A DNA stretch of 64,000 nucleotides from Paracoccaceae bacterium (GTDB taxonomy: Bacteria > Pseudomonadota > Alphaproteobacteria > Rhodobacterales > Rhodobacteraceae): assembly GCA_021741245.1 (NCBI GenBank), contig JAIOYF010000007.1:62001-126000 (forward strand), given 5' to 3'. Under the pieces are notes generated by a model. The model was not told where the DNA came from. It saw only the letters and a program-made list of their open reading frames with translations, and made no database searches. A program made the position numbers and the translations under genes. Position 1 is the stretch's first letter, and every line of letters starts with the position of its first letter. Positions 1,604 through 33,206 of the stretch are shown piece by piece.

Positions 1604-1644
1604 AGAAAAGGGGGCTGTCTGCCCCCTCGGCGCAAAGCGCCTCA

Positions 1645-1677: not shown

Positions 1678-1683
1678 CAGATG

Positions 1684-3701: not shown

Positions 3702-3750
3702 GGCATGACTGTAACTCGGGGCCGCCTTGGCCCCCAAAGGGGAGAAACGA

Positions 3751-12686: not shown

Positions 12687-12705
12687 GAGGGAGGCTCCTT
12701 GACAC

Positions 12706-12718
12706 GTTATGATATAAC
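12706..12718. promoter_or_regulatory. Zur box 1 (GTTATGATATAAC)
   Basis: Interrupted palindrome GTTAT-GAT-ATAAC within CGTTATGATATAACATAC, 20 bp upstream of zur and 37 bp upstream of znuA. It fits the AT-rich GTTATAATATAAC-type Zur/Fur operators. The assignment to Zur is inferred from position. Confidence 0.75.
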
Positions 12719-12754
12719 ATACATACCCATCGCACCCGAGTCGAGAGGCATACG

Positions 12755-14815: not shown

Positions 14816-16054
14816 TCAGCCCTCAACCCCGCCCAGACCCGCGGCGCGGAACCAGCGGATGATGGCAAGCCGCTCTTCGGGTTCCATATAGCTCAGGTTG
14901 CCCGGTGGCATCGCATGGGTCACCCCGGCCTGCATGTAGATGCGCTGGGCCTCATGCGCGATCTGGGCCGGGGTCTCCAGCACCACGCCCTTGGGCGGCC
15001 AATACATGCCCTCCCACGCAGGCTCGGTCGCATGGCACATGCTGCACCGCCCCTGCACCACGCTCACCACATCGTCAAACCCCGAGGCCGAGGCAAAGCG
15101 CAACGCCGCCCCGCCCAAGGCCGCCTCCGGCTCGGGCACCGTGCGCATCGGCGCCGTCGACAGCCACGCGATCACCACAAACAACAGCGCCGTCACCCCC
15201 CATGTCCAATGCGGATTGCCGCCGCGCGCATGTTTGGTGTTGAACCAATGCCGGATCGTCACCCCCATCAGGAACACAAGGCTGGCGATGATCCAGTTAT
15301 ACTCGGTCGCAAAGATCAGCGGGTAATGGTTCGACAGCATCAGGAAAATCACCGGAAGCGTCAGATAGTTGTTATGCGTGCTGCGCTGCTTGGCGATCTT
15401 GCCGTATTTCGGGTCCGGCTTGCGCCCGGCCTTCAGATCGGCCACCACAATCCGCTGATTGGGCATGATGATGAAAAACACATTGCCCGACATGATGCTG
15501 CCCGTAAACGCGCCCAGATGCAGCAGCGCTGCCCGGCCACTGAAAACTTGGGTGTAGAACCACGCCATCGCCACCAGCACGCCAAACAGCGCCACCATCA
15601 GTACCGTCTGATCGGCATTCACAAACACCCGGCACAGCGTGTTGTACACCACCCAGCCAAAGGCCAGCGAGGCCATCGAAATCGCCACCGCCTGCCAGAC
15701 CTGCAACTCCATCACATTGGGATCAATCAAGAAAAGCTCGGCCCCAAGGTAATAGACCAAGGCCAGCATGGCAAAACCCGACAGCCATGTGGCATAGCTT
15801 TCCCATTTGAACCATGTCAGATGCTCGGGCATCATGTCGGGGGCCACCAGATATTTCTGAATGTGGTAGAACCCACCGCCATGCACCTGCCATTCCTCGC
15901 CATGGGCAAGGGGCGGCAGGCTGGGCGTCTTGCGCAGGCCAAGGTCCAGCGCGATGAAATAGAATGAGCTGCCGATCCACGCGATGGCCGTGATCACATG
16001 CGTCCAGCGCACCGCAATCGCGACCCATTCCCACAAAACCGCCCAGTCATACAT
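14816..16054 (-). CDS. puuD: Urate hydroxylase PuuD (membrane urate oxidase with C-terminal cytochrome c domain)
   Basis: A 412-residue membrane protein with about eight helices over residues 1-300, followed by a cytochrome c domain with one haem site CSMCH (Cys337, Cys340, His341). This architecture matches PuuD, which oxidises urate to 5-hydroxyisourate and passes electrons to the respiratory chain, unlike soluble uricase, which makes hydrogen peroxide. The N-terminus WTHVITAIAWIGSSFYFIALD is characteristic. It is divergent from a LysR gene, and the enzymes of the next steps lie 2.7 kb away. Confidence 0.9.
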   Translation of the reverse strand: MYDWAVLWEWVAIAVRWTHVITAIAWIGSSFYFIALDLGLRKTPSLPPLAHGEEWQVHGGGFYHIQKYLVAPDMMPEHLTWFKWESYATWLSGFAMLALVYYLGAELFLIDPNVMELQVWQAVAISMASLAFGWVVYNTLCRVFVNADQTVLMVALFGVLVAMAWFYTQVFSGRAALLHLGAFTGSIMSGNVFFIIMPNQRIVVADLKAGRKPDPKYGKIAKQRSTHNNYLTLPVIFLMLSNHYPLIFATEYNWIIASLVFLMGVTIRHWFNTKHARGGNPHWTWGVTALLFVVIAWLSTAPMRTVPEPEAALGGAALRFASASGFDDVVSVVQGRCSMCHATEPAWEGMYWPPKGVVLETPAQIAHEAQRIYMQAGVTHAMPPGNLSYMEPEERLAIIRWFRAAGLGGVEG

Positions 16055-16167
16055 CGCATCACTCCCTTGCTGCCTCCGCCAAAGGCTATACCCAAGCGCA
16101 GTTTCATGTTAATCCTGTAAATCCCAGATCACTTTCAATCTCTGCCAGATAATCACCGGGTGCCCAG

Positions 16168-17121
16168 ATGTCCTACGTGAACAACATCAAAATGTTCATC
16201 CGTGTCTATGAATTGAGCAGCATGAGTGCGGCCGCCCGCGATCAGCGCACCTCACCCGCCGTGGCCTCCGCCCGGATCTCCGACCTTGAAAAGCATCTGG
16301 GCATCCGCCTTTTTCACCGCACCACCCGCTCGCTGCAACCCACCGAGAATGGCCGCATCTTCTATGACGGGGCCCGCCGCATCCTCGAGGCGATCGAAGA
16401 GGCCGAGGCCGCCGTGATGGATGTCACCCAAAACCCGCGCGGCACCATCTTCGTCGCCGCCCCCCTTGGCATCGGGCGGCGGTTGATCGCGCCACATGTG
16501 CCGGGCTTCAAGGATCAATACCCCCAGATCGACGTGCGCCTGCGCCTGTCCGACCGGGTGATCGACGTGGTGGCCGAAGGCATCGACGTGGCCTTTCACC
16601 TCGGCCTGCTCGAAGACAGCACCCTCAAGGTCAAACTCATCGCCGATTGCCCGCGCGTCCTCTGCGCCGCCCCCGCCTATGTCGCCCGTCGCGGCATGCC
16701 CGCCGATGGCGCGGCCCTTGTCTCTGACCGGCACGATTGCCTGAACCTGCGCTTTCCGGGGGCCAAGGAATTCCAATGGACCCTGAAAACCCCCGACGGC
16801 CCCCGCCGGTTCGAGATCACGGGCCCCTACGAATCCGATGATGGCGATGTGCTGACAGGCTGGGCCCTTGCCGGGCGCGGCATCGTGCTCAAACCGATCT
16901 TCGATGTGGCCGACCATCTGCGCCAAGGCACCCTCGTGCCCGTGGCTGTCGCGACGCCGCCCCTGCCCACACAACTGTCCAGCCTCACCCAACACCGCCG
17001 CCTCAAGGACCCAAAGGTGCGCCTGTTCACCGATTACATGGCCGCCCGCATCAAAGAGGAATTGCGCCGCGCCGCCACCGGCCCCCAACTCGGCCCCGCC
17101 CAGACCGCATCGCCCGGCTAA
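16168..17121 (+). CDS. LysR family transcriptional regulator
   Basis: A 317-residue LysR-type regulator: N-terminal winged helix-turn-helix (residues 1-60, with ARISDLEKHLGIRLFHRTTR) and a C-terminal periplasmic-binding-like effector domain from about 90. It lies back to back with puuD across 113 bp, the standard arrangement for a LysR protein controlling its neighbour. A urate-pathway compound as effector is an inference. The gene is followed by repeat copy C. Confidence 0.85.
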   Translation: MSYVNNIKMFIRVYELSSMSAAARDQRTSPAVASARISDLEKHLGIRLFHRTTRSLQPTENGRIFYDGARRILEAIEEAEAAVMDVTQNPRGTIFVAAPLGIGRRLIAPHVPGFKDQYPQIDVRLRLSDRVIDVVAEGIDVAFHLGLLEDSTLKVKLIADCPRVLCAAPAYVARRGMPADGAALVSDRHDCLNLRFPGAKEFQWTLKTPDGPRRFEITGPYESDDGDVLTGWALAGRGIVLKPIFDVADHLRQGTLVPVAVATPPLPTQLSSLTQHRRLKDPKVRLFTDYMAARIKEELRRAATGPQLGPAQTASPG

Positions 17122-17136
17122 ACCTTGGGCGCAACG

Positions 17137-17202
17137 CCCCCTTTCATCTGTTCTTAAATATCCTGGGGGAATCGCGCATCGCGCGATGGGGGCAAAGCCC
17201 CC
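17137..17202 (-). repeat. Dispersed intergenic repeat, copy C, with two hairpins
   Basis: Core CTTTCATCTGTTC then TTAAATATCCTGGGGG (17137-17169), followed by a perfect ATCGCGC-ATC-GCGCGAT palindrome (17171-17187) and GGGGGC-AAA-GCCCCC (17188-17202). The core-hairpin-hairpin layout recurs in copy E. It lies just after the LysR gene. Confidence 0.75.
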
Positions 17203-17213
17203 TGCCCGGCATC

Positions 17214-17241
17214 AAAACGCCCGAACCTTTCGGTCCGGGCG
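17214..17241 (-). terminator. Intrinsic terminator of the DUF2125 gene
   Basis: Read on the minus strand: CGCCCGGACC, loop GAAA, GGTTCGGGCG, then TTTT. The ten-pair stem with a GAAA tetraloop lies 25 nt after the stop of the DUF2125 gene. Confidence 0.75.
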
Positions 17242-17265
17242 CGGGCAGGTACATCTATCACCAGA

Positions 17266-18735
17266 TCACTGGATGCGCTGGCCGTTCACAAAGATCGCGC
17301 CACCTTCCTTGGCCTCCACCTTCGAGGTCAGAACATCCTCCCCCTCTGGCTTGCCAAACATCGCCATCATCATCCGCGCCCCCATCGCATCTTGTTCCGA
17401 CAAGATGCCGATCGCAATGAGACCGTCGATCAGCTTGTTGCCGCCCTCCAGACGCAGATCCGCCGACCCCAGCGGCATCGGCGGGCCACCTGCCGCCACC
17501 AGCGAGTTGTCAAAGGTAAAGGCCCCCGATCCCGACAGCGCCGCCCCGGCAAGGCTCAGGCCTAGCGTGGTCACATCCAATGTCATCAGTTCGGGCAGCG
17601 ATTTGGGCTGCGTGCCATTCTCGCTTGATTCCATCAGATCAATCAGATCGACCTTCACTTTGCCACTGACATCGACATCCAGATTGATCGGATCGCGGGC
17701 AAGCGTGGCACCGGGGTCAACCATGGCCCAAGCCCCTTCGCCGATCACCAGATTGCCCAGCTTCATCGCCAGCCCATAGTCGCCGGGCTCCGCCGTCACC
17801 ACCGGCATCCCAAAGCCGATCATCATCTCATCCATGCTGACCGGAATTTCCGCCGGAACCATCGGCGGCAGCAAGGTGGCCGCCACAGTTGTCACCTGCG
17901 TATCAACCGCAAAAGCGTCCTTGCTCATCTCGATCCCCGTCACCGCCGGCCCCGAGGTGAAGCGCATGTTCAGCGGCATAAAGGGGCTTGCGTCTTCGAC
18001 CGTTCCATCAGACGAGCCTTGTTTGACCTCAACCAACAGGCCCAGCCCGTTGCGCGCGGCGGCAAAGAAATCCGCGGGGCCCTGCAGGCTCATCAGATCC
18101 AGACCCTCGGGCACCGTCAGCTCGGCCGTCAGATCCAGACCCGTGGTGTCACTCGTCTGCTTGCTGTCCACGGAAGAGTCTTTGTTGGCAATGTCATAGG
18201 TCAGACGCTCCGCCGCAATGCCCAGCAGCATGCCCAGCTTTTCGCGGGTATAGCGGCCATCAAGAGCGGTCAGATTGACCTTGAGATCAAGGTTCGTGTT
18301 GGGGCCACTCGCCTGCACCATCACAGACAGGCTGTCGGCAAAGGCGCCATAGCCAAGGCCGCCCTCATCTTCATGCACACTCAGCCCAAGGCCCTCATGG
18401 ACGATGTCCAGCTTGCCCGTCCGCCCCTCGGGCGGCGAGACCTCGACCTTGATGTCCTCAGGATAGATCGTGACGCTGCCATCATCCTCTTCCACCAGCA
18501 TCACTTCGGAAATCGTGGCGCCACCCTTGCCGCCCTGCGGCGCCAGCGTCACCCCGTTCAGGGTCAGCTCCCCATCACCCTTGACCTCGGTCGCGGCCGA
18601 GATTTTCACGCCAGCCCCCATGGCCAGCGCCTGCCAATCGGCCCAAACCTGATCCGCCGTCAATGCCTGCGCAGCCGTGCCACTCAACAAAAGTGCCATC
18701 ACCGGCACGACCTTCAATACCTTTGACTGAAACAT
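17266..18735 (-). CDS. DUF2125 domain-containing exported protein
   Basis: A 489-residue protein with a Sec signal peptide (MFQSKVLKVVPVMALLLSGTAAQA, cut about residue 24) and a long beta-rich body that matches the general pattern of DUF2125 proteins (repeated 'L..G.G..T.D..L' and 'L.V..LGLSLAGA.LSGSG' strands in the C-terminal third). The function of the family is unknown; the envelope location is inferred. The ATG at 18735 has GGGAG 6 nt upstream, better than the ATG two codons earlier. It has its own terminator and is separated from hiuH by 70 bp, so it need not belong to the urate pathway. Confidence 0.7.
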   Translation of the reverse strand: MFQSKVLKVVPVMALLLSGTAAQALTADQVWADWQALAMGAGVKISAATEVKGDGELTLNGVTLAPQGGKGGATISEVMLVEEDDGSVTIYPEDIKVEVSPPEGRTGKLDIVHEGLGLSVHEDEGGLGYGAFADSLSVMVQASGPNTNLDLKVNLTALDGRYTREKLGMLLGIAAERLTYDIANKDSSVDSKQTSDTTGLDLTAELTVPEGLDLMSLQGPADFFAAARNGLGLLVEVKQGSSDGTVEDASPFMPLNMRFTSGPAVTGIEMSKDAFAVDTQVTTVAATLLPPMVPAEIPVSMDEMMIGFGMPVVTAEPGDYGLAMKLGNLVIGEGAWAMVDPGATLARDPINLDVDVSGKVKVDLIDLMESSENGTQPKSLPELMTLDVTTLGLSLAGAALSGSGAFTFDNSLVAAGGPPMPLGSADLRLEGGNKLIDGLIAIGILSEQDAMGARMMMAMFGKPEGEDVLTSKVEAKEGGAIFVNGQRIQ

Positions 18736-18805
18736 CCTCATCTCCCAAAAAAGATCTTTTACCCCCTTAAGATGCCAGTCTTTTTCAAAGGCGCAAGGTG
18801 ATGTT

Positions 18806-19159
18806 TTAACTACCCCTGTATGTAGAGTAGGCAAACGGCGAAATCAGCAGCGGCACATGGTAATGCTGCGCGGCATCCGGCACCCCAAAGCGGATCGGAA
18901 TTTCGTCCAAAAACAGCACGCCCTCCCCGGCCTGCCCACTGCGCCGCAGATAGTCGCCCGCGCAAAACACCAACTCGTAGGTCCCTGCCTCCAAGGCATC
19001 GCCTTGCAAAAGCGGCGCATCGGTGCGCCCATCGGCATTTGTGACCACCTCGGCGATCTTCTCGTGGCCGTGGCCACTGACCCGATAAAGCGTGATTTTC
19101 ACGCCACTTGCCGGTTTTCCCAGCGCCGTATCAAGAACATGTGTCGAAAGCCGCCCCAT
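18806..19159 (-). CDS. hiuH: 5-hydroxyisourate hydrolase (transthyretin-like)
   Basis: A 117-residue transthyretin-like enzyme that hydrolyses 5-hydroxyisourate, the PuuD product, to OHCU. The diagnostic features are the N-terminal [14 protein letters not shown] (catalytic His near residue 7), a central Arg, and the C-terminal tetrapeptide YRGS, the family signature absent from true transthyretins. AAAGGA upstream supports the ATG at 19159; the frame upstream of it is not protein-like. Divergent from the PuuE-UraD fusion gene, whose UraD half takes the next step. Confidence 0.92.
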
Positions 19160-19329
19160 GATGCATCCTTTTCCGCAAATCTGCTTTGCCTTTGGCCTTG
19201 CCGTATCAAAACATGAAACCGGGCTGGGCGCGACCTTAGCGGTGGGGCAAAGCTCTTTCTGAAATTTCTTGAAAAACACCGGGCGATTTCCAGTCTACTG
19301 TCAAATAAATCCTGAAAGTGAGGATATCC

Positions 19330-20745
19330 GTGAACCGCTACCCCCGTGATTTCCGAGGCTACGGCCAAAATCCCCCCGATGCCCAATGGCCGGGCGGCGC
19401 AAAGATCGCCGTGTCGATCGTGCTCAACTATGAAGAGGGCGGCGAAAACAACCTGTTGCACGGCGATGCGCAATCCGAGGCGTTCTTGTCCGATATCGCC
19501 GGGGCCGCGCCTTGGCCCGGCCTGCGCCACTGGAACATGGAATCGATCTACGATTACGGCGCGCGGGCAGGCTTCTGGCGCGTTCATCGGCTGTTTACCT
19601 CCCACGGCATTCCGCTGACCATTTACGGTGTCACCTCGGCCCTTGCCCGCAATCCCGAACAGGTCGCCGCGATGAAGGCCGCCGGATGGGAAATCGCCAG
19701 CCACGGCCTCAAATGGGTCGATCACCGCGACATGCCCGCCGAGGTTGAGGCCGCCCAGATCGCAGACTCCATCCGCCTGCACACCGAGGTGGTGGGCGAA
19801 CCCCCGCGCGGCTGGTATACCGGGCGCTGCTCGATCAACACCGTGCAACTCGCCGCCGAAACCGGCCAGCTTGACTGGATCTCCGATACCTATGACGACG
19901 ACCTGCCCTATTGGATGGAGGTCGGCGCGCGCGACCAGCTGATCATCCCCTATACGCTGGAGGCAAATGACATGCGCTTTGCCACGGCACCGGGCTATAT
20001 CACGGGCGAGCAATTCTTCAGCTATCTCAAGGACAGCTTCGATACCCTCTATGCCGAAGGGCAAGAGGGCCGCGCCAAGATGTTCTCCATCGGGCTGCAC
20101 AACCGCTTGATCGGCCGCCCCGGCAAACTCGCGGGCCTCAAGCGCTTTTTGGACTATGCCCAAGGGCATGAAGGCGTCTGGTTCCCCCGCCGCATCGACA
20201 TTGCCCGGCATTGGGCCGCCACCCACCCCCATACTCGCCGTGAACGTCCCAGCCAGATGGCGCTTGCGCGCTTTGTCGAACGCTTCGGCTCGGTCTTTGA
20301 ACATTCGCCATGGATCGCGGAACGCGCCCATGGTCTGGAACTTGGCCCCGCGCATGACTCCACGATTGGCCTGCACAATGCGCTGGCGCGTATGTTCCGC
20401 TCTGCCACGCCAGATGAGCGGTTGGGCGTTCTGCGCGCCCACCCCGATCTTGCAGGAAAACTCGCCGCCGCCAAGCGGCTGACGGCAGAGTCCACCGCCG
20501 AACAGGCCAGCGCCGCCCTTGATGCGCTGACCGATGACGAACGCGCGACCTTTCAGCGCCTCAATGCCGATTACGTCGCCAAACACGGCTTTCCCTTCAT
20601 CATCGCCGTGCGCGACAACACCAAGGACAGCATCCTTGCCGCCTTCGCCGCGCGCATCGCCAATGACACCGCCACCGAATTCACCACCGCCTGCGCGCAG
20701 GTCGAACGCATCGCCGAATTGCGCCTGAAGGACATGCTGCCATGA
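19330..20745 (+). CDS. Fused allantoinase PuuE / OHCU decarboxylase UraD
   Basis: A 471-residue fusion. Residues about 1-300 are a polysaccharide-deacetylase-type PuuE allantoinase (metal-independent; VNRYPRDFRGYG start, IASHGLKWVDHRDM near 122, FSIGLHNRLIGRPG near 252). Residues about 307-471 are OHCU decarboxylase (EHSPWIAERA near 324, catalytic His in RAHPDLAG near 371, KHGFPFI near 418). UraD gives S-allantoin from OHCU; PuuE opens the ring to allantoate, so one polypeptide does two consecutive steps in reverse order along the chain. The GTG at 19330 follows GAGGA at 19320-19324. The stop overlaps allE (ATGA). Confidence 0.9.
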   Translation: MNRYPRDFRGYGQNPPDAQWPGGAKIAVSIVLNYEEGGENNLLHGDAQSEAFLSDIAGAAPWPGLRHWNMESIYDYGARAGFWRVHRLFTSHGIPLTIYGVTSALARNPEQVAAMKAAGWEIASHGLKWVDHRDMPAEVEAAQIADSIRLHTEVVGEPPRGWYTGRCSINTVQLAAETGQLDWISDTYDDDLPYWMEVGARDQLIIPYTLEANDMRFATAPGYITGEQFFSYLKDSFDTLYAEGQEGRAKMFSIGLHNRLIGRPGKLAGLKRFLDYAQGHEGVWFPRRIDIARHWAATHPHTRRERPSQMALARFVERFGSVFEHSPWIAERAHGLELGPAHDSTIGLHNALARMFRSATPDERLGVLRAHPDLAGKLAAAKRLTAESTAEQASAALDALTDDERATFQRLNADYVAKHGFPFIIAVRDNTKDSILAAFAARIANDTATEFTTACAQVERIAELRLKDMLP

Positions 20746-21584
20746 CCGGCTATTACACCCCCAAGGGCGGCCTGCCGCCGCAAACCCAGTTGATGACCGG
20801 ACGCGCGATCTTTACCGATGCCTATGCCGTCATTCCACGGGGATGCTTTTCCGATATCGTCACCAGCGCCCTGCCCGGCTGGACCCAGACCAAGCTCTGG
20901 CTCATCGCGCGGCCCATGTCGGGCTTTTCCGAAACCTTCAGCCAATATGTGATGGAGGTCGCCCCCGGCGGCGGCTCTGACGCACCGGATGCCGAGGCGG
21001 GGGCCCAGCATGTGCTCTTTGTCACCGATGGCCAGATCACGCTCACCATCGACGGCCAGTCCCACGCCCTCACCGCAGGCGGCTATGCCTATATCCCTGC
21101 CGGGGCGAAATGGACTCTGCACGCCACGGGCCAAACCCCCGCCCGCTTTCACTGGGTCCGCAAACTCTACGAACCCGCCCCCGGCATCCCCGCCCCCGCG
21201 GCTTTCGTGACCTCCGACAAGGCCCTGAAACCCATCCCCATGCCCGATACCAACGGCGCCTGGGCCACCACCCGATTTGTCGATCCGACCGACCTTGCCC
21301 ATGACATGCACGTCAATATCGTCACCTTCCAACCCGGCGGCACCATCCCCTTTGAAGAAACCCATGTCATGGAACACGGGCTTTATGTGCTGGAAGGCAA
21401 GGCCGTCTACAAACTCAACACCGATTGGGTCGAGGTCGAGGCCGGCGATTTCATGTGGCTGCGCGCCTATTGCCCGCAGGCCTGCTATGCCGCAGGCCCC
21501 GGCCCCTTCCGCTACCTGCTCTACAAGGACGTCAACCGCCACGCCAAACTGCGCGGCCCCGGTGCCTTTGGGGCGCAACGATGA
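20742..21584 (+). CDS. allE: (S)-ureidoglycine aminohydrolase (bicupin)
   Basis: A 280-residue bicupin protein. AllE removes ammonia from (S)-ureidoglycine to give (S)-ureidoglycolate and uses Mn2+. The opening YYTPKGGLPPQTQLMTGRA matches the AllE/YlbA family. The C-terminal cupin has the metal site pattern PFEETHVMEHGLYVLEGKA (His and Glu ligands about residues 207-214). It overlaps the PuuE-UraD gene by 4 bp. The enzyme that makes ureidoglycine, allantoate amidohydrolase (AllC), is not in this window. Confidence 0.9.
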   Translation: MTGYYTPKGGLPPQTQLMTGRAIFTDAYAVIPRGCFSDIVTSALPGWTQTKLWLIARPMSGFSETFSQYVMEVAPGGGSDAPDAEAGAQHVLFVTDGQITLTIDGQSHALTAGGYAYIPAGAKWTLHATGQTPARFHWVRKLYEPAPGIPAPAAFVTSDKALKPIPMPDTNGAWATTRFVDPTDLAHDMHVNIVTFQPGGTIPFEETHVMEHGLYVLEGKAVYKLNTDWVEVEAGDFMWLRAYCPQACYAAGPGPFRYLLYKDVNRHAKLRGPGAFGAQR

Positions 21585-21642
21585 CCCTTTCATCTGTTCA
21601 TAAATATCCCACGGGGAGCGCGAGGGGTGTGAAACCCCTCGC
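21585..21642 (-). repeat. Dispersed intergenic repeat, copy D, with hairpin
   Basis: Core CCCTTTCATCTGTTC then ATAAATATCCC (21585-21616), directly after the allE stop codon, followed by a hairpin with arms GCGAGGGG (21620-21627) and CCCCTCGC (21635-21642). It sits inside the allE-allA transcription unit. Confidence 0.75.
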
Positions 21643-21669
21643 TCCCGCCCCCTCCGCCGGGCGCACCCA

Positions 21670-22158
21670 ATGACCCTGCGCGCCAACACCCTCACCCCCG
21701 CGCCCCTCACCGCCCGCGCCTTCGCCCCCTTCGGCGATGTGCTTGACGCCACGGGCGACTTCCGCCTGATCAACGCGGGCCTGTGCCAACGCCATCACGA
21801 CCGCGCCACGCTTGATTTCGGGCCGCAAGGCCACGCCGGGATCTCGGTCTTCAAGGCCGAACCCCGCGCCCTGCCCTACAGCTTTGACCTGATCGAACGC
21901 CACCCCGAGGGCTCACAGGCCTTCCTGCCGATGACCGAACACCCGTTCCTCGTCATCGTCTCCCCCGGCCCCGATCATCCGCCCCTGGCCTTTTTGACCA
22001 ATGGCGCGCAAGGCATCAATCTGCACCGGGGCACATGGCATGGGGTGCTCACCCCCCTGCATGCCCCCGGCCTGTTCGCCGTGGTCGACCGCATCGGCCC
22101 CACCCCGAACCTCGAAGAATTCCGGTATCCAGCCCCCTGGACCGTGATCGCGCCCTGA
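21670..22158 (+). CDS. allA: Ureidoglycolate lyase
   Basis: A 162-residue protein of the AllA family, which splits (S)-ureidoglycolate into glyoxylate and urea. The N-terminus LTARAFAPFGDVLDA and the cupin-like core with NLHRGTWHGVLTPL (about residues 116-130, metal/substrate His) and the final DRIGPTPNLEEFRYP are typical. This step links purine breakdown to glyoxylate, the substrate of the bhc enzymes encoded 6 kb away. It is separated from allE by repeat copy D. Confidence 0.9.
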   Translation: MTLRANTLTPAPLTARAFAPFGDVLDATGDFRLINAGLCQRHHDRATLDFGPQGHAGISVFKAEPRALPYSFDLIERHPEGSQAFLPMTEHPFLVIVSPGPDHPPLAFLTNGAQGINLHRGTWHGVLTPLHAPGLFAVVDRIGPTPNLEEFRYPAPWTVIAP

Positions 22159-22246
22159 GGAGGGGGCGCTCCTAACCATCTGCGCCTAACGGGCAGCGCA
22201 GGTGGCGCGAATAATCAATGCCCCAAGGGATAGGAGAAAAAAACGG

Positions 22247-23734
22247 ATGACCACCTCGGTTCACCCGGTTGATGAGCTTTTGCCATCGCCAAAGCTGTTC
22301 ACCCTCGGCCTGCAACATGTGCTTGTCATGTATGCAGGTGCCGTCGCCGTGCCGCTGATCGTCGGTCGCGCCTTGAAACTCGACCCCGCCGATGTGGCCT
22401 TTCTGATTTCGGCCGATCTGTTCGTCTGCGGGATCGTGACGCTTATTCAGGCCTTTGGCGCCACCCAATGGTTCGGGATCAAGCTGCCCGTGATGATGGG
22501 CGTCACCTTTGCCGCCGTCGGCCCGATGGTCGCCATGGCCAATGCCCAAGGCGGCCCCGAGGGCGCGCGCGCCATCTTTGGCGCGATCATGGCCGCGGGC
22601 GTGATCTCCATCCTGATCGCCCCGGTGATCAGCCGCCTGCTGCGCTTTTTCCCGCCCGTTGTCACCGGCACGATCATCCTTGTGATCGGTGTGTCGCTCA
22701 TGCGCATCGGCATCAACTGGATCTTTGGCAACCCCGTCGGCCCCACCGCCCCACAACTGGTCAACCCCGCCCATGCCGACTGGCTCAAGGCCGTGACCGA
22801 AGGGGCGGCTTCCGGCGCAATAGCAGGGCTGCCCGAAATCCCCGCAGGGCTCAGCCTCGCGGCCAAGGTCAACAACCCGGCCTATGCGCCCCTCAGCAGC
22901 ATCCTCGTCTCGGCCATCGTCCTTGGCTCTATTCTGCTGATCGCCAAGTTTGGCCGTGGCTTTATCGCCAATATCTCGGTGCTTCTGGGCATCGTGGTCG
23001 GCGTTGTCATCGCCATCGCCATGGGCGCCATGCATTTTGACAAGGTCGGCTCCGCTGCATGGTTTGGCCTGATCACGCCGCTGCACTTTGGCACGCCCAC
23101 CTTTGATCCGGTGATGATCCTGACGATGAGCCTTGTGATGATCGTCGTGATGATCGAATCGACCGGCATGTTCCTCGCCCTTGGCGACATGACCGGCAAA
23201 CCCGTCACCCAACCCATGCTTTCGGCGGGCCTGCGCACCGATGGCTTGGGCACGCTGATCGGCGGGCTGTTCAACACCTTCCCCTATACCTCGTTCAGCC
23301 AGAATGTCGGCCTTGTCGGCGTCACCGGGGTGAAATCGCGCTTTGTCTGCGTGGCAGGCGGGCTGATCATGGTCGTGCTGGGCCTGATGCCAAAGATGGG
23401 CGCGCTGGTCGAATCCGTGCCCACCATGGTCTTGGGCGGCGCAGGTCTTGTGATGTTTGGCATGGTCGCGGCCACCGGCATCCGCATCCTTGCGGGTGTC
23501 AACTTCACCGCCAACCGCAACAACCTGTTCATCGTCGCGGTTTCGCTTGGCTTTGGCATGATCCCGCTGATCGCGCCAAACTTCAAAATGTGGATGCCGC
23601 ATGACATTCACCCGCTGATCGAAAGCGGCATCTTGCTGGCCTCGCTCAGCGCGGTGATCCTCAACGCCTTCTTCAACGGCGCCTCTGCCTCGGTGGAGGA
23701 TGCAAAAGGCGCCGCCATGGCCGCCGACCACTGA
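22247..23734 (+). CDS. NCS2 family xanthine/urate-type permease
   Basis: A 495-residue inner-membrane transporter with about 12-14 helices. It has the NCS2 features of the xanthine/urate branch: QHVLVMYAGAVAVPLIVG near residue 24, the substrate-site stretch ESTGMFLALGDMTGKP near 307 and NTFPYTSFSQNVGLV near 344, the family signature. Urate or xanthine is the likely substrate from the adjoining urate pathway. ATG 22247 has GGAG 10 nt upstream. It is last in the cluster and followed by a strong terminator. Confidence 0.9.
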   Translation: MTTSVHPVDELLPSPKLFTLGLQHVLVMYAGAVAVPLIVGRALKLDPADVAFLISADLFVCGIVTLIQAFGATQWFGIKLPVMMGVTFAAVGPMVAMANAQGGPEGARAIFGAIMAAGVISILIAPVISRLLRFFPPVVTGTIILVIGVSLMRIGINWIFGNPVGPTAPQLVNPAHADWLKAVTEGAASGAIAGLPEIPAGLSLAAKVNNPAYAPLSSILVSAIVLGSILLIAKFGRGFIANISVLLGIVVGVVIAIAMGAMHFDKVGSAAWFGLITPLHFGTPTFDPVMILTMSLVMIVVMIESTGMFLALGDMTGKPVTQPMLSAGLRTDGLGTLIGGLFNTFPYTSFSQNVGLVGVTGVKSRFVCVAGGLIMVVLGLMPKMGALVESVPTMVLGGAGLVMFGMVAATGIRILAGVNFTANRNNLFIVAVSLGFGMIPLIAPNFKMWMPHDIHPLIESGILLASLSAVILNAFFNGASASVEDAKGAAMAADH

Positions 23735-26682: not shown

Positions 26683-27660
26683 TCACCGCCCCATCAGGCG
26701 CGCCACGTCCAGCATGCGGTTGGAAAAGCCCCATTCATTGTCATACCAGCCAAACACCCGCAGCATCCCCCCCGCCGTCACCCGCGTCTCGGGCAGGGCC
26801 ATTACGATGCTCTCCGGGCGGGCCCGCAGATCCGACGATACTAGCGGCCGGTCGGTCCAGCCCATCACCCCGCCCGCCTGCGCAAATAGCGCGTTGACCG
26901 CCTCCCCCCCCGGCACACGGCCCAGCATCACCGACAGATCCACACAAGACACGCTCGCCACCGGCACCCGCACGGCCGAGCCTGCGATGCGCCCGGCAAT
27001 CTCGGGCAAGACGGTATCCAAAAGCCGCGAGGCGCTGGTCGTCGTCGGCACCATCGACAAGGCCGCCGCCCGGCTACGCGCATAATCTGCCGCAGGCGCA
27101 TCCACCGTGGGCTGGCTGCCGGTATAGCAATGGATCGTGGTCATTGATCCGGTGACCACGCCAAAGGCGTCATGCAGCGCCCGCGCCAAGGGCGCCAGCG
27201 CATTGGTCGTGCAACTGGCGTTCGACACGATCCTTTGCCCTGCCAGCGCGTGGTCATTCGCCCCCAGAACCACCGTCAGCTCTGCCGCCGCCGAGGGCCC
27301 CGAGATCAGCACCCGCGCGGCGCCCGCCTGCAGGCCGCGCCCCGCCACCGCCGCCGCATCGGCCCGCCCGGTGCATTCCATCACCACATCGACGCCCGAC
27401 AGATCAAGGCCCGAGATATCGGGCACCCGGTGCAGGGGAATCGCGCGGCCATCAACGACCAGCGCCCCTTGCGTCAGCGCGACAGACCCGCGCCAAACCC
27501 CAAAGGTGCTGTCATATTCGAACAGATAGGCGCACATTTCCGGGGCTGCGATGTCGTTGATCCCGACAATTTCCAACCCGCGCCATTTTTCCGGGGCCTC
27601 GGCAAAGGCCCGCAGAACCGAACGCCCGATACGACCAAACCCATTGATGAAAACACGCAT
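26683..27660 (-). CDS. gap: Glyceraldehyde-3-phosphate dehydrogenase family protein
   Basis: A 325-residue GAPDH-type enzyme with N-terminal NAD site NGFGRIGRS (residues 5-13), catalytic Cys in SNASCTTN (about 150), catalytic His in TTIHCYTGSQ (about 177) and C-terminal WYDNEWGFSNRMLDV. It diverges from standard sequences at several usually constant positions (ISGPSAAAELTVVLGAN instead of ISAPAKGD-type, HCYTGSQ instead of HAYTGDQ). It may be a second, specialised GAPDH or an erythrose-4-phosphate dehydrogenase. It lies 88 bp downstream of bhcD on the same strand, so it could share that transcript. Confidence 0.85.
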   Translation of the reverse strand: MRVFINGFGRIGRSVLRAFAEAPEKWRGLEIVGINDIAAPEMCAYLFEYDSTFGVWRGSVALTQGALVVDGRAIPLHRVPDISGLDLSGVDVVMECTGRADAAAVAGRGLQAGAARVLISGPSAAAELTVVLGANDHALAGQRIVSNASCTTNALAPLARALHDAFGVVTGSMTTIHCYTGSQPTVDAPAADYARSRAAALSMVPTTTSASRLLDTVLPEIAGRIAGSAVRVPVASVSCVDLSVMLGRVPGGEAVNALFAQAGGVMGWTDRPLVSSDLRARPESIVMALPETRVTAGGMLRVFGWYDNEWGFSNRMLDVARLMGR

Positions 27661-27748: not shown

Positions 27749-28708
27749 TCAGACCGCAACCTTTACCCCAACGCCCCGTTCTTGTGCCCGTCGCAGCGCC
27801 ATGGCGGCCACGGCCAGATCCTGCAAACCCACCCCCGTGCCATCAAACAGCGTAATTTCCTCGGCCGATTGCCGCCCCGGATGCCGCCCCGTCACCACAT
27901 CGCCCAAGGGCGTGATCGCCGCGGCCTGCAGCAGCCCGGCGGCAATGGCATGCTGCGCCTCGCCAATGCTGATCGATTGCGCCACCTCATCGGTAAACAC
28001 CGTGGCACGGGCCAACAGGGCCGCCTCCACCTCTTGCTTGCCCTTGGTGTCGGTGCCCATACAGGCCAGATGCGTGCCGGGGCCCACATGCGCCGCCATC
28101 AGGCTTGCGGCGGGCGACGAGGTGATGGTGATGATCACATCCGCCTCCACCATCCGCTCAAGAGGCACCGCCTCGAACGGCAGGCCCAGCTCGGCCGCGA
28201 CGGCCCCCAGCTTGGGCAACATGTCGGGGTGCAGGTTCCAGGCGATCACCCGGTCGAATTGGCGCACGCGCGCCGCTGCCCGCATCTGAAACGTTGCCTG
28301 ATGCCCTGCACCCACCATGCCCAGCACGCGCGCCTCCCGTCGCGCCAGCCGGGCAATCGAAATCGCACTCGCCGCTGCCGTGCGCAGCGCGGTCAACAGG
28401 TTGCCCCCCACCATGGCCGTGGGCCGCCCGGTCTCGGGGTCGAACAAGAAGACGCTGGATTGATGATTGATCATGCCCTTGTCGGCATTGCCCGGAAAGT
28501 AACCGCCCGCCTTGACACCCAGCTGCGCACCCGCCCGGTCAAGCCCGGATTTGAAACCATATTGCCGCCCCTCGCCCAAGGCCTCCCGCACCACAGGAAA
28601 GTTATAGGCATCGCCATTGGACATGGCGGCAAAGCATCCCTCGATGGCGTCAAAGGCATCTTGGGGCGACACGAGGTCCGCAATCAGCGCCTCGGGAACG
28701 ATCAACAT
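27749..28708 (-). CDS. bhcD: Iminosuccinate reductase BhcD (beta-hydroxyaspartate cycle)
   Basis: A 319-residue protein of the ornithine cyclodeaminase/mu-crystallin family, with NAD(P)-binding LGMVGAGHQATFQMRAAA near residue 130 and GGNLLTALRTAAAS near 105. Alone it would be annotated as an ornithine cyclodeaminase. In the cluster with BhcA, BhcB and BhcC it is assigned as iminosuccinate reductase, which uses NADH to regenerate L-aspartate. It is the last bhc gene of the leftward operon, 105 bp after bhcC. AAGGA precedes the ATG at 28708. Confidence 0.88.
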   Translation of the reverse strand: MLIVPEALIADLVSPQDAFDAIEGCFAAMSNGDAYNFPVVREALGEGRQYGFKSGLDRAGAQLGVKAGGYFPGNADKGMINHQSSVFLFDPETGRPTAMVGGNLLTALRTAAASAISIARLARREARVLGMVGAGHQATFQMRAAARVRQFDRVIAWNLHPDMLPKLGAVAAELGLPFEAVPLERMVEADVIITITSSPAASLMAAHVGPGTHLACMGTDTKGKQEVEAALLARATVFTDEVAQSISIGEAQHAIAAGLLQAAAITPLGDVVTGRHPGRQSAEEITLFDGTGVGLQDLAVAAMALRRAQERGVGVKVAV

Positions 28709-28813
28709 GGGGCAATCCTTTTGGCGGCCAAACACGCCGCACGTCTGTCAAGTTTGTCTGTACCGGGGGTGTACGGGGGGTGTACCGATGTCACCCCCCT
28801 TTTTTTTCAACAA

Positions 28814-29977
28814 TCAGAACGCCTTACCGCGCGCGCTGACTGGCCAGACCACCTCGACCTTGCCACCGCGCACACCGACATACCAATCATGCACATTGCA
28901 GGTCGGGTCACAGTGGCCGGGCACCAGCTTCAGCTTGTCATTGACCTTCAGAACACCCTGCGGGTCCTCGACAACCCCATGCTCATCGCTGCACTTGACG
29001 TATTTCACATCCGTCCGGCCAAAGATTACCGGCAGGCCGGAGTCGACCGATTGCGCCTTCAGACCGGCATCCACAATGGCCTTGTCAGCCTTGGCATGGG
29101 ACATGACAGAGGTCAGGATGAACAGCGCATTTTCCCATTCACCTTGGTCAATCCGCTTGCCATCCTTGTCCAGAATACGGCCATAATCGGCATCCATGAA
29201 CGCGTAGGAACCGCACTGAAGTTCGTTGTAAACCCCTGATGTGCTTTCGAAATAATAGCTGCCCGTGCCGCCGCCGCCGACGATGTCACAGTCAATGCCA
29301 TCGGCCTTCAGCGTATCCACCGCGTCCTTCACCTGCGCCACGGCAAGCGCAATCTTGGCCTTGCGGTCCTCATAGCTGTCCATGTGCTGCATCGCGCCCT
29401 GATAGGCTTGGATACCGGCAAATTTCAGCCCCGGCGCCGCGTCAATCGCCTTGGCAAGGGTCACCACCTCGGGCGTGGTCTTCACACCGCAACGGCCCGC
29501 GCCACAGTCGATTTCCACAAGACATTCGATCTGCGTGCCATGCTTGACAGCCGCTGCCGAAAGGTCCGCCACATTGTCCAACATGTCGACGCAGCAAATC
29601 GTCCGCGCCCCCAGTTTCGGCATGCGGGCAAGACGGTCAATCTTGGCCAGATCGCGCACTTGATTGGAGACCAAGACATCCTTGATGCCCCCCCGCGCAA
29701 ACACCTCGGCCTCGCTAACCTTTTGACAACACACACCAACGGATCCGCCAAGTGTCTCTTGCAGCAAGGCCACATCAACCGATTTGTGCATCTTGCCATG
29801 TACGCGGTGACGCATGCCATGGGCCTTTGCATAGTCGCCCATCTTCTTGATGTTGCGCTCCAGCGCATCCAGATCCAACACAAGGCAAGGCGTCTGAATG
29901 TCGGCCTCATCCATTCCGGGCAGCGCCGGAATGTCATAGCCCACCTCAAAACCTTCAAGTTTTACATGGCTGTTCAT
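28814..29977 (-). CDS. bhcC: Beta-hydroxyaspartate aldolase BhcC
   Basis: A 387-residue PLP enzyme of the DSD1/D-threonine aldolase (alanine-racemase fold) family. RVHGKMHKS at 58-66 holds the Schiff-base lysine, most likely Lys62, and HCDPTCN near the C-terminus (about 355) is the family's metal-binding His/Cys region. BhcC condenses glyoxylate with glycine to (2R,3S)-beta-hydroxyaspartate. It lies 4 bp after bhcB, a tight operon junction. Standalone annotation would call it a D-threonine aldolase; the assignment depends on the complete bhc set. Confidence 0.9.
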   Translation of the reverse strand: MNSHVKLEGFEVGYDIPALPGMDEADIQTPCLVLDLDALERNIKKMGDYAKAHGMRHRVHGKMHKSVDVALLQETLGGSVGVCCQKVSEAEVFARGGIKDVLVSNQVRDLAKIDRLARMPKLGARTICCVDMLDNVADLSAAAVKHGTQIECLVEIDCGAGRCGVKTTPEVVTLAKAIDAAPGLKFAGIQAYQGAMQHMDSYEDRKAKIALAVAQVKDAVDTLKADGIDCDIVGGGGTGSYYFESTSGVYNELQCGSYAFMDADYGRILDKDGKRIDQGEWENALFILTSVMSHAKADKAIVDAGLKAQSVDSGLPVIFGRTDVKYVKCSDEHGVVEDPQGVLKVNDKLKLVPGHCDPTCNVHDWYVGVRGGKVEVVWPVSARGKAF

Positions 29978-29981
29978 AAGC

Positions 29982-30953
29982 TTACCCTTTCATCCAAGGC
30001 AAAGTATCCAGATCGACGTTTCCGCCCGTTATCACCACACCAACACGACGCCCCCGGAACACCTCCGGGTTGGCAAGGATGGTGGCCAATGGCACGGCAC
30101 AAGATGGCTCCATCACGATCTTCATCCGCTTCCATGTCATCTTCATCGCCTCGATGATCTGCTCTTCGGTCGCGGTAAACACGTCCCGGACATGGCGGCT
30201 GACAAAATGCCAGGTGAGGTCCTTGAGCGGCACCTTCAACCCATCCGCCACCGTTTCGGGCGCGTCATCGGCGATGATATGCCCGGCTTTGAAGCTGCGA
30301 AAGGCGTCGTCGGCATTCTTGGGTTCCGCCGCATAGACATCAATCCCCGGCCCAATCGCACTCATCGTCAGACAGGTGCCCGAGATCATGCCCCCGCCGC
30401 CAATCGGCGCGATGATGGCATCCAGTCCGTCCACCTGCTCCAACATCTCGCGTGAGCAGGTCGCCTGCCCCGCCACCACGCGCGGGTCGTTATAGGGGTG
30501 CACGAATTCACCCCCCGTCGCGGCCTGCACCCGAGCGAAGACCTCTTCGCGACTGCTGGTCGAAGGCTCACATTCGGTGATCACCCCACCATAGCCCCGC
30601 ACCGCATCCTTCTTGGCCTGCGGTGCCGTGCGCGGCATCACCACATTGCACGGAATCCCCCGACGCCCGGCGGCATAAGACAATGAAAGCGCATGGTTTC
30701 CGCTGGAATGGGTGCACACGCCAAAACGCGCCTGCTCATCCGTCAGGCCAAACACCGAATTGCACGCCCCACGAACCTTGAAGGCCCCGGCCTTCTGAAA
30801 GTTCTCGCATTTGAAGAACAATTCCGCCCCGGTCAATTCGTTGAAATAGCTCGAGGTCAGCACAGGCGTGCGGTGGATATAGGGACGGATCCGGTCATGC
30901 GCCGCGATCACATCATCAAAGGTCGGTATATACATCGGGTCTAGGTCCTTCAT
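29982..30953 (-). CDS. bhcB: Beta-hydroxyaspartate dehydratase BhcB
   Basis: A 323-residue fold-type II PLP enzyme, like threonine dehydratase/serine racemase. The PLP lysine is Lys59 in FKVRGA; SSGNHA (84-89) and the glycine loop GGGGMISG (about 180) bind the cofactor. BhcB dehydrates beta-hydroxyaspartate to iminosuccinate. The ATG at 30953 follows GAAGGG, which is the end of repeat copy F; an alternative ATG is at 30935. The upstream in-frame codons only read through the repeat and are rejected as coding. Confidence 0.9.
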   Translation of the reverse strand: MKDLDPMYIPTFDDVIAAHDRIRPYIHRTPVLTSSYFNELTGAELFFKCENFQKAGAFKVRGACNSVFGLTDEQARFGVCTHSSGNHALSLSYAAGRRGIPCNVVMPRTAPQAKKDAVRGYGGVITECEPSTSSREEVFARVQAATGGEFVHPYNDPRVVAGQATCSREMLEQVDGLDAIIAPIGGGGMISGTCLTMSAIGPGIDVYAAEPKNADDAFRSFKAGHIIADDAPETVADGLKVPLKDLTWHFVSRHVRDVFTATEEQIIEAMKMTWKRMKIVMEPSCAVPLATILANPEVFRGRRVGVVITGGNVDLDTLPWMKG

Positions 30954-30960
30954 GTCGGCA

Positions 30961-31016
30961 CCCTTCATCTGTTCATAAATATCCTCGGGGGGTCCGGGGG
31001 GCAGACAGCCCCCCGG
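30961..31016 (-). repeat. Dispersed intergenic repeat, copy F, between bhcA and bhcB
   Basis: Core CCCTTCATCTGTTC then ATAAATATCCTC and G6 (30961-30992), then CCGGGGGGC-AGACA-GCCCCCCGG (30994-31016). On the minus strand the hairpin follows the bhcA stop by 10 nt, and the repeat ends in GAAGGG, the ribosome site of bhcB. The same core/hairpin pair with the AGACA loop is found in copies A and E. Confidence 0.8.
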
Positions 31017-31026
31017 CAGTTCCGCC

Positions 31027-32217
31027 TCACTCCGCCGCCAAGGCCATCGCGCCGGTCGAGCCGCGATAATATTCTTGCGCCGCCGCAACCCCGCTGCCCA
31101 GTTTGATCGGCCAGCCCAGATCGGCCATGCACATCTCGGCGCAGGCCAGACCAGACAGCACCATCACATCCGTCAGCATGCCCAAGTGGCCAATACGGAA
31201 GACTTTTCCCGCAACCTCGCCCAGCCCCACACCGAAGGCGACGCCGTATTTCTCGGCGGCCAGCTTGACCAGATCGGTGCCGTTGCAGCCCGCAGGCACC
31301 ACCACCGCCGTGATCGTTTCGGAATAAAGGTCGGCCGAGGCGGCACAGGGCTTCATCCCCCAAGCGGCCACCGCACGGCGAACGCCTTCGGCCAAGCGGT
31401 GATGCCGGGCATAGACGTTCTCCAGCCCCTCATCCTCCAGCACCTCAATCGCCTTGGCGAGGCCGGCAATCAGACCCACGGCTGGCGTATAGGGGTAGCC
31501 GCCCGCAGCATAAGCTTTCAGCATATCGGCAAAGTCAAAGAATGTGCGCGGCAGCTTGGCCGTTTCCATCGCCGCAATTGCCTTAGGGCTGACCCCCAAA
31601 ATGGCCAGACCTGCAGGCAGCATGAACCCCTTCTGGCTGCCCGCCACGGCGATATCCACGCCCCATGCGCCCATCTCGAACGGCATAGACCCGATGGACG
31701 ATACACCATCCACAAAGAACAGCGCGTCGTGGCCTGCCGCGTCCATTGCCCGCCGAATGCCTCCGATATCGGATTTGACGCCCGTGGCGGTTTCATTATG
31801 CGTGGCAAGAACGGCCTTGATCTGGCCCTTGGTATCAGCCTTCAGCGCGGCCTCAATCTCGGCCAACGGCGCGCCCTGCCCCCACGGGGTTTCGATGATC
31901 TGAACGTTCAAACCGTGGCGTTGGCACAAATCGATCCAGCGGTGGCTGAACATCCCAAAGCGTGCGGCCAGAACGGTATCGCCGGGCGACAACGTATTGG
32001 TCATCGCAGCCTCCCATCCGCCGGTGCCAGTTGACGGCAGGATGATCACCTCGCCCTCGCCCATCTTCAAAACACGCCGAACGCCCTCAACAGCAGGCTT
32101 GAACATCCGCGCGAATGCTGGCGAGCGGTGATCGATTGTTGGCATGTCGCAGGCCTTGCGAATGACCTCGGGCATATTGGTAGGCCCTGGAATGAAGACT
32201 GGGTTTTGGAGCGACAT
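31027..32217 (-). CDS. bhcA: L-aspartate:glyoxylate aminotransferase BhcA
   Basis: A 396-residue class V aminotransferase of the serine/alanine-glyoxylate aminotransferase type. It opens with NPVFIPGPTNMPE, has VDGVSSIGSMP near 170-180, and carries the PLP lysine Lys196 in GSQKGFML. BhcA aminates glyoxylate with aspartate, giving glycine and oxaloacetate, the first step and the product-releasing step of the beta-hydroxyaspartate cycle. GAGGTG precedes the ATG at 32217. It is first in the operon bhcA-B-C-D, divergent from bhcR across 173 bp. Confidence 0.92.
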   Translation of the reverse strand: MSLQNPVFIPGPTNMPEVIRKACDMPTIDHRSPAFARMFKPAVEGVRRVLKMGEGEVIILPSTGTGGWEAAMTNTLSPGDTVLAARFGMFSHRWIDLCQRHGLNVQIIETPWGQGAPLAEIEAALKADTKGQIKAVLATHNETATGVKSDIGGIRRAMDAAGHDALFFVDGVSSIGSMPFEMGAWGVDIAVAGSQKGFMLPAGLAILGVSPKAIAAMETAKLPRTFFDFADMLKAYAAGGYPYTPAVGLIAGLAKAIEVLEDEGLENVYARHHRLAEGVRRAVAAWGMKPCAASADLYSETITAVVVPAGCNGTDLVKLAAEKYGVAFGVGLGEVAGKVFRIGHLGMLTDVMVLSGLACAEMCMADLGWPIKLGSGVAAAQEYYRGSTGAMALAAE

Positions 32218-32278
32218 GGCAAGCACCTCAGTGTTTCTGTTGCCACCACATTAGGGCCTGCAACCCCATCGCACAATT

Positions 32279-32346
32279 TTTTCGAAAAGATTTTTCATTT
32301 TTGAGAAACCTCTGTAAAAGCCTTTGTAAACAGGTTGAAAGCCTTT
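32279..32346. promoter_or_regulatory. bhcA/bhcR divergent control region with repeats
   Basis: The region has a TTTTCGAAAA palindrome (32279-32288) and two direct copies of AAAGCCTTT (32317-32325 and 32338-32346) exactly 21 bp apart, two helical turns. They lie between the divergent operon and regulator, where an IclR dimer pair would bind. Assignment to BhcR is inferred. Confidence 0.5.
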
Positions 32347-32390
32347 TTCACTTTTCTCACAGCAGTTCATGCCAAATCTGGACGGGTCAT

Positions 32391-33206
32391 ATGACACAAG
32401 CACCTCGCCCCCGCGGACGCCCCCGCGCCTTTAACGACAAGACCGATCAAAACACCGTTCAGGCCCTTGATCGGGCGCTTGCGCTCTTGGCTGTGATGGC
32501 GGCAAAGCCGGGCATGACCCTGTCTGAACTGGCCGCTGAAAGCGGGCAGGCCGTGGCATCAGTCTTTCGCGCGCTTGTGACCATGCAGACGCATGGCATC
32601 GTTGAATGTGAGGAACCGGGGCAAATCTGGCACATCGGCCCCGGGGCCTTTCGGGTGGGCAGCAGCTTTCTGCGCCGGACCAAGGTGGTGGAGCGGGCCC
32701 GTCAATCGATGGACAGTTTGATGCGGGAAACCGGGGAGACCGCCAATCTGGGGGTCGAGGTCGGGGATGAGGTTCTGTTCCTCAGCCAAGTGGAAACACA
32801 TGAGGCAATCCGGGCATTTTTCCCGCCGGGCACAAAGGCACCCATGCATGTCTCGGGCATCGGCAAGGCGCTGCTGGGCTGGTATCCCGAAGACCGGGTC
32901 CGGGGCATCATCGCCCGGCGCGGGATGGAGCGGTTCACCACCCTGACCCATACCTCTGAATCGTCCCTTTTGCGGGATCTGGCCCATACCCGCGCGCGCG
33001 GCTTTGCCATTGATGATCAAGAGCGCGCCGAAGGAATGCGCTGCGTTGCGGCCCCTATCTTCAATAGCCATGGCGAACCTGTTGCGGGCCTCTCCGTCTC
33101 GGGGCCCGCCTTTCGGATGAACCTGTCAGACGCAAGCCATTTGGGGGCAATCGTGCGCAGTGCCGCCGACCGGGTGACCGAGGCCACAGGCGGGCAGCAG
33201 CCCTGA
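32391..33206 (+). CDS. bhcR: IclR family regulator BhcR
   Basis: A 271-residue IclR-type regulator. After a basic Pro/Arg-rich leader (RPRGRPRAF) comes a winged helix-turn-helix at about 25-85 (LDRALALLAVMAAKPGMTLSELA) and a GAF-like effector domain to the end. In Paracoccus the orthologous gene sits in the same divergent position, controls bhcABCD and responds to glyoxylate. The ATG at 32391 is chosen because the upstream frame covers the promoter region. Its TGA forms one arm of a short palindrome shared with the stop of convergent parC. Confidence 0.88.
   Translation: MTQAPRPRGRPRAFNDKTDQNTVQALDRALALLAVMAAKPGMTLSELAAESGQAVASVFRALVTMQTHGIVECEEPGQIWHIGPGAFRVGSSFLRRTKVVERARQSMDSLMRETGETANLGVEVGDEVLFLSQVETHEAIRAFFPPGTKAPMHVSGIGKALLGWYPEDRVRGIIARRGMERFTTLTHTSESSLLRDLAHTRARGFAIDDQERAEGMRCVAAPIFNSHGEPVAGLSVSGPAFRMNLSDASHLGAIVRSAADRVTEATGGQQP

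Follow-up and report, generated by a model that had tools for sequence, protein, structure and literature searches.

The beta-hydroxyaspartate cycle (BHAC) turns glyoxylate into a building block without carbon loss. The pathway is already published and has been presented as a route for glycolate (PMC11323563). We analyzed 64,000 nucleotides from a Paracoccaceae bacterium (assembly GCA_021741245.1, contig JAIOYF010000007.1, positions 62,001 to 126,000); this whole stretch is called the window. It carries a candidate BHAC cluster, bhcABCD with the regulator gene bhcR, close to purine breakdown genes and a gene resembling glyceraldehyde-3-phosphate dehydrogenase (GAPDH). The locus raises the question of whether these genes constitute a BHAC, and which glyoxylate they would assimilate. 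Our analysis suggested that this is a complete BHAC operon, which probably takes up glyoxylate derived both from purines and from glycolate, with the GAPDH-like gene probably leading toward sugars.

Identity and order of the bhc genes

Protein identity was judged by NCBIfam equivalog models with curated bit-score cut-offs, together with Pfam. Four genes were found on the minus strand: bhcA for L-aspartate--glyoxylate aminotransferase (31027..32217; NF045640, 719.1 bits, cut-off 650), bhcB for beta-hydroxyaspartate dehydratase (29982..30953; NF045641, 594.3 bits, cut-off 550), bhcC for 3-hydroxy-D-aspartate aldolase (28814..29977; NF045642, 757.8 bits, cut-off 690), and bhcD for iminosuccinate reductase (27749..28708; NF045643, 540.5 bits, cut-off 500). 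The divergent bhcR on the plus strand encodes a regulator with IclR-family domains in Pfam (32391..33206; NF045644, 399.1 bits, cut-off 350). An earlier note, made from the DNA letters, had described four leftward genes and a divergent IclR regulator here, and had read them as a complete BHAC cluster in Paracoccus order. The five reading frames were all there and passed their NCBIfam cut-offs, in agreement with that reading.

Start codons were chosen by inspecting the sequence and how far each NCBIfam match extended. Probable ATG starts are at 32217 (bhcA), 30953 (bhcB), 29977 (bhcC), 28708 (bhcD) and 32391 (bhcR); the open reading frames listed for all of these except bhcC extend further upstream. 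The genes are separated by 73 nt (bhcA–bhcB), 4 nt (bhcB–bhcC) and 105 nt (bhcC–bhcD), and they may be transcribed as an operon. A GC-rich inverted repeat, GGGGGGTG / CACCCCCC with a 9-nt loop, lies in the bhcC–bhcD gap at 28775-28799. No terminator-like site was detected between 27600 and 33300, and a sigma-70 scan of the same region was uninformative (2 sites versus 1.7 expected in shuffles). An Rfam scan of the window for known RNA regulators gave no match at the gathering score.

For comparison, the best 80 of 594 bhcC relatives were taken as related loci. Because they were chosen in this way, the set leans to the window's kin. Flanks of at least 8 kb on both sides were available in 51 loci, and less in 29. 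In 76 of the 80 loci, bhcA, bhcB, bhcC and bhcD had the same order and direction, and 62 had the divergent bhcR too. Three of the exceptions (L044, L049 and L081) are short contigs. The fourth, L079 from Rhodovulum adriaticum, has bhcR, bhcB, bhcC and bhcD and no bhcA match in its 19-kb locus. The closest solved structures to BhcC and BhcD were a D-3-hydroxyaspartate aldolase (6qkb) and an iminosuccinate reductase (6rqa), respectively; those closest to BhcA and BhcB were enzymes bearing other names. The window thus almost certainly contains a complete, orthologous bhcABCD cluster with a divergent bhcR, an identification as good as sequence permits.

Motifs and paralogs of the Bhc enzymes

The motifs and lysine numbers given in the earlier note were all present. 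The lysine of GSQKG in BhcA is residue 196, counted from the ATG at 32217, and all 82 of the 82 aligned Bhc rows have GSQKG unchanged. BhcB contains Lys59 within AFKVRG, kept in 87 of 87 rows, and SSGNHA. HGKMHK of BhcC, part of RVHGKMHKS, was kept in 87 of 87 rows, and GAGHQ of BhcD, part of VGAGHQ, in 84 of 84. Some positions neighboring the motif residues varied among the aligned rows.

Compared with the Bhc proteins annotated on six plasmids, BhcA was 64-70% identical, BhcB 72-76%, BhcC 75-81% and BhcD 60-66%. The nearest paralogs in the same genome were 52%, 32% and 35% identical for BhcA, BhcB and BhcD, and BhcC had none. All four enzymes were therefore nearer to named Bhc proteins than to their own-genome paralogs. 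A second BhcA-like aminotransferase, 52% identical, is encoded at L102 (G000:C18:294995-296137) and scored 567.1 of the 650 bits on the BhcA model.

A phylogeny including paralogs had been proposed as a check on the cluster. Trees were built for BhcA, BhcB and BhcD with 35, 38 and 36 rows, comprising all references and paralogs and about one third of the related loci. In the LG+G4 trees, a branch split the Bhc proteins from their own paralogs, with support of 80/50 for BhcA, 55/82 for BhcB and 100/99 for BhcD. These trees carried long-branch warnings, and the bootstrap for BhcD was unsettled. Quick mixture-model trees gave extreme paralog branches, and no single branch of the BhcB tree set the named Bhc rows apart (2 changes). 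The check therefore separated BhcD, separated BhcA and BhcB at modest support with LG+G4, and failed to separate BhcB in the mixture tree.

Names and spread of the cluster

If the four enzymes were instead a serine-glyoxylate aminotransferase, a threonine dehydratase, a D-threonine aldolase and an ornithine cyclodeaminase, there would be no BHAC. The Pfam matches are generic and older records bear such names. We consider this explanation very improbable: five named equivalog cut-offs were passed, the competing NCBIfam models listed for the five proteins stayed below their own cut-offs, and the genes stood together in Bhc order in all but four related loci. Generic enzymes were rejected on the model scores. 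The earlier note had also warned that gene-by-gene annotation would yield these misleading names. The warning applied to the Pfam matches and to two non-RefSeq plasmid records. The RefSeq plasmid records and the NCBIfam models use the Bhc names, and the warning holds for older annotation only, because NCBIfam now has an equivalog model for each protein.

The spread of the cluster was examined in 149 genomes of 72 genera, defined by a single family code and including the window's own genome. bhcC was found in 91 genomes and 49 genera. At E ≤ 1e-120, 117 plasmid records also had a bhcC match, and 20 of these plasmids are predicted to be conjugative. Four genomes (G002, G062, G098 and G123) had two bhcC matches each. 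With bhcC so widespread in the family sample and on plasmids, the cluster in the window is an ordinary example of a system that is both known and common.

Purine genes beside the cluster

A purine gene set was found 4.0-12.9 kb from bhcD (14816-23734). Neither this set nor the GAPDH-like gene beside the cluster was mentioned in the earlier note. The minus strand carries a PuuD-type urate oxidase gene (14816..16054; PF06181, 450.7 bits; no NCBIfam match) and a 5-hydroxyisourate hydrolase gene (18806..19279; PF00576, 125.3 bits). On the plus strand are genes for an allantoinase PuuE fused to OHCU decarboxylase (19318..20745; TIGR03212, 503.3/424.6 bits, and TIGR03164, 201.6/96.25 bits), a bifunctional allantoicase/(S)-ureidoglycine aminohydrolase (20742..21584; NF040771, 491.6/350 bits), a ureidoglycolate lyase for the glyoxylate-releasing step (21670..22158; PF04115, 174.3/23 bits), and a xanthine-type NCS2 permease (22202..23734; TIGR03173, 512.7/414.15 bits). 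A gene for every step from urate to glyoxylate is thus present in the window, with the ureidoglycolate lyase assigned by Pfam only.

Allantoinase, ureidoglycine aminohydrolase and ureidoglycolate lyase genes were used as purine markers. At least two of the three were present in the available flanks of bhcC in 36 of the 80 related loci, and in 26 of the 51 with at least 8 kb on both sides. Among the 91 family genomes with bhcC, an allantoinase gene was near it in 34, 37 and 39 genomes at 10, 20 and 30 kb, corresponding to 21, 23 and 24 of 49 genera. With every genome taken as 4.1 Mb, chance would give about 0.9 genomes within 20 kb, versus the 37 observed. At least 6 changes were needed to account for the linkage on a tree of 51 concatenated BhcA-D rows, indicating that most of it was inherited and that losses and rearrangements also occurred. 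A ureidoglycine aminohydrolase gene was upstream of bhcA, in the usual place of bhcR, in six loci (L007, L031, L037, L045, L060 and L070).

Eleven plasmid records were also examined; they were hand-picked from the plasmid matches and therefore give no rate. The Alloyangia pacifica plasmid carries in one run xdhABC, a permease gene, guaD, a ureidoglycine enzyme gene, bhcR, bhcABCD, a permease gene, a ureidoglycolate lyase gene, puuE, a LysR gene and puuD. The plasmid of isolate SC52 resembles this run, but the stretch examined contains neither xdh nor guaD. On two plasmids of Methylobacterium, which belongs to another taxonomic order, bhc adjoins genes for 8-oxoguanine deaminase, a nucleobase permease and a molybdopterin oxidase, and uraD. 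The M. oryzae plasmid continues with puuE, puuD and uraH, and the M. radiotolerans stretch stops inside puuE. On the Limimaricola plasmid, nucleobase permease, GAPDH-like and glycine cleavage genes are near bhc. The Rhizorhabdus plasmid stretch has neither purine genes nor glcDEF-type genes beside bhc.

BhcR and its predicted operator

In the window and 13 close relatives, the DNA between bhcR and bhcA is variable apart from one shared block that hardly changes. The predicted BhcR operator, with the palindromic core TTTTCGAAAA, is at 32275..32296 on the minus strand, with the start of bhcA 57 nt downstream. Of 63 related bhcR–bhcA spacers, 57 had a match to the pattern GAAAAANNTTTTCRAAAAAATT with no more than 3 mismatches, and 56 of these 57 matches were 43-52 nt ahead of the extrapolated start of bhcA. 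A match to the G-only form with no more than 4 mismatches turned up in only 1 of 1280 base-shuffled controls. The perfect form occurred once in the genome; the other genome matches were weaker, on contigs C7 (2 and 3 mismatches) and C17 (3). bhcR was not seen in the available stretch of 16 loci. Eleven of them reach the DNA before bhcA, and all 11 had the site, 10 at no more than 2 mismatches and L007 at 4.

BhcR was aligned to the ligand domain of E. coli IclR with hand-mapped positions. The oxygen-contact residues were kept and the pyruvate patch was lost, as in Paracoccus BhcR (Table 1 of PMC11323563). The same source describes a possible BhcR site, palindromic and placed ahead of the bhcA -35 element, comparable to the predicted operator by description, not by letters, and reports that BhcR activates in vivo and that glyoxylate weakens its binding in vitro (PMC11323563). 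Here, BhcR is predicted to sense glyoxylate and to act on the operator, an AT-rich palindrome immediately before the bhcA promoter. The conserved operator could serve in glyoxylate sensors.

The possibility that BhcR controls the purine genes as well was also considered. At no more than 3 mismatches, the operator pattern in the window was confined to the bhcR–bhcA spacer, with no match near the purine genes. Co-regulation of these genes by BhcR is therefore unsupported.

GAPDH-like gene behind bhcD

The GAPDH-like gene (26683..27660, minus strand; PF00044/PF02800) is 88 nt behind bhcD and is probably co-transcribed with it. A GAPDH-like gene was downstream of bhcD in 18 of the 80 related loci, and in Limimaricola it is 9 nt behind bhcD. 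The window copy scores 332.3 bits on TIGR01534, below the cut-off of 367.2; its relatives in L007, L130 and L132 are also below this cut-off, whereas two tandem GAPDH paralogs in the genome exceed it. Erythrose-4-phosphate dehydrogenase was rejected as a role: those models scored below TIGR01534, itself under its cut-off. As both model types fell short, neither name is secure. Another member of the GAPDH family is located elsewhere in the genome, at L085 (G000:C15:2485-3549), with three stop codons inside the match.

The enzyme belongs to the same fold family as type I GAPDH, and ASCTTN, the catalytic-His region, RVP and the Asp of GIND are kept. It differs in having HCYTG and PTTTSA, whereas the genome's other copies have HSYTG or HDVTN and PTSTGA or PTTTGS. 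The window copy and 10 of 10 aligned bhc-linked relatives have HCYTG after the catalytic-His position, and in the same copies Ser replaces the Gly of PTSTGA or PTTTGS.

In the family sample, GAPDH-like homologs were found in 92 of 149 genomes at the orthology threshold of E ≤ 1e-100, and more distant copies may be among them. Within 10 kb in those 92, an allantoinase gene was found in 25, bhcC in 14 and either in 33. The 25 genomes with allantoinase neighbors compare with about 0.45 expected, again with every genome taken as 4.1 Mb, and 8 of the 25 had no bhcC at the threshold. In L007 and on the Rhizorhabdus plasmid, the next gene after the GAPDH-like one is malic-enzyme-like and scores below its cut-off; this arrangement fits carbon flow from oxaloacetate. 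Such genes downstream of bhcD and the GAPDH-like gene are at L007:12839-15136 and L132:15328-17604. The GAPDH-like enzyme probably serves the flow of carbon from oxaloacetate to sugars.

Source of the glyoxylate

The cell may feed purine carbon into the BHAC, because the cluster adjoins the purine-to-glyoxylate genes. The glyoxylate would most likely be supplied by urate and allantoin breakdown, encoded 4-13 kb from bhcD, plus glycolate oxidase, encoded on another contig. The glcDEF set on contig C13 has GlcF over its cut-off and GlcD and GlcE under theirs. Glyoxylate carboligase was over the cut-off in 0 of 149 family genomes, while the E. coli positive control passed; the best match in the window's genome reached 345.4 of 711.2 bits. 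Passages of PMC11323563 name purines and allantoin as general glyoxylate sources only. In Pseudomonas aeruginosa, an allantoin-inducible cluster converts glyoxylate to pyruvate (PMC12694930). Parts of PMC11166783 and PMC7574528 were further literature. No report of a linkage between BHAC and purine genes was found in the literature searched, which was mostly without subscription papers, and one may be in print elsewhere.

Several observations weigh against a flow of purine carbon into the cycle. The ureidoglycolate lyase is under its best NCBIfam cut-off (243.6/260). No allantoinase gene was within 20 kb in 54 of the 91 bhcC genomes, and allantoinase genes were present in 146 of 149 genomes, with or without bhcC, indicating that purine breakdown needs no BHAC. 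Among the 39 cases linked within 30 kb, 34 had one convergent layout, and in the remaining 5 the allantoinase gene was on the opposite side of bhcC; a large share of the linkage therefore reflects inheritance and not independent events. The Ruegeria pomeroyi, Paracoccus and Aminobacter plasmid stretches had bhc without purine genes. Two Rhizobiaceae plasmids had glcDEF-type genes beside bhc in place of purine genes. These two loci (L116 and L118, on Sinorhizobium and Rhizobium plasmids) also have 5-oxoprolinase-type genes beside bhc.

The cycle might accordingly serve glycolate only, as in Paracoccus, with the purine genes being inherited neighbors used mainly for nitrogen and no flux from them into the cycle. 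The glcDEF genes of the genome, those on the two Rhizobiaceae plasmids, the prevailing layout and the lack of a BhcR operator near the purine genes all fit this explanation. We nevertheless regard it as less likely, since the linkage is about 40 times the chance level across 23 genera, recurs in another taxonomic order on the Methylobacterium plasmids and exists in other layouts, and since no carboligase route was found for the released glyoxylate. We therefore favored a BHAC that would draw on both purines and glycolate.

A wider proposal is more tentative, and we rate it slightly below an even chance. The BHAC may be a main carbon sink of purine catabolism in Rhodobacteraceae-type bacteria, with a near-contiguous urate-to-oxaloacetate pathway in the window. 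The distinct GAPDH-family enzyme with its altered phosphate-loop motif would then be a recurrent third partner, tied to glyoxylate or purine metabolism and not to ordinary glycolysis.

Proposed pathway

The reaction scheme was based on published Paracoccus work and on general knowledge. BhcC would condense glyoxylate and glycine to 3-hydroxyaspartate, which BhcB would dehydrate to iminosuccinate. BhcD would reduce iminosuccinate to aspartate with NADH as the reductant. BhcA would then transfer the amino group of aspartate to a second glyoxylate, yielding oxaloacetate and regenerating glycine. The neighborhood is the useful part of the finding: it suggests that the BHAC also recovers purine carbon in a family whose sampled genomes have no carboligase over the cut-off.

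Other genes in the window

Genes of a BMP-family ABC transporter are located at 83-4842. Relatives of BMP-family ABC transporters carry nucleosides. At 10575-13738 are genes resembling those of a zinc ABC transporter, together with one resembling a Fur-family regulator gene.

Comparison with known systems

Known urate and allantoin catabolism proceeds through PuuD, 5-hydroxyisourate hydrolase, PuuE-UraD, ureidoglycine aminohydrolase and ureidoglycolate lyase, and all six activities are encoded at 14816-22158. A difference is that the genes leading to the glyoxylate end product adjoin the BHAC here, whereas the carboligase route of E. coli was not found. The bhcRABCD cluster of Paracoccus denitrificans (PMC11323563) has the same five families, the same order and the same divergent regulator as the cluster in the window. 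Purine genes and a GAPDH-like gene adjoin the cluster here, whereas neither adjoins bhc on the one Paracoccus plasmid examined.

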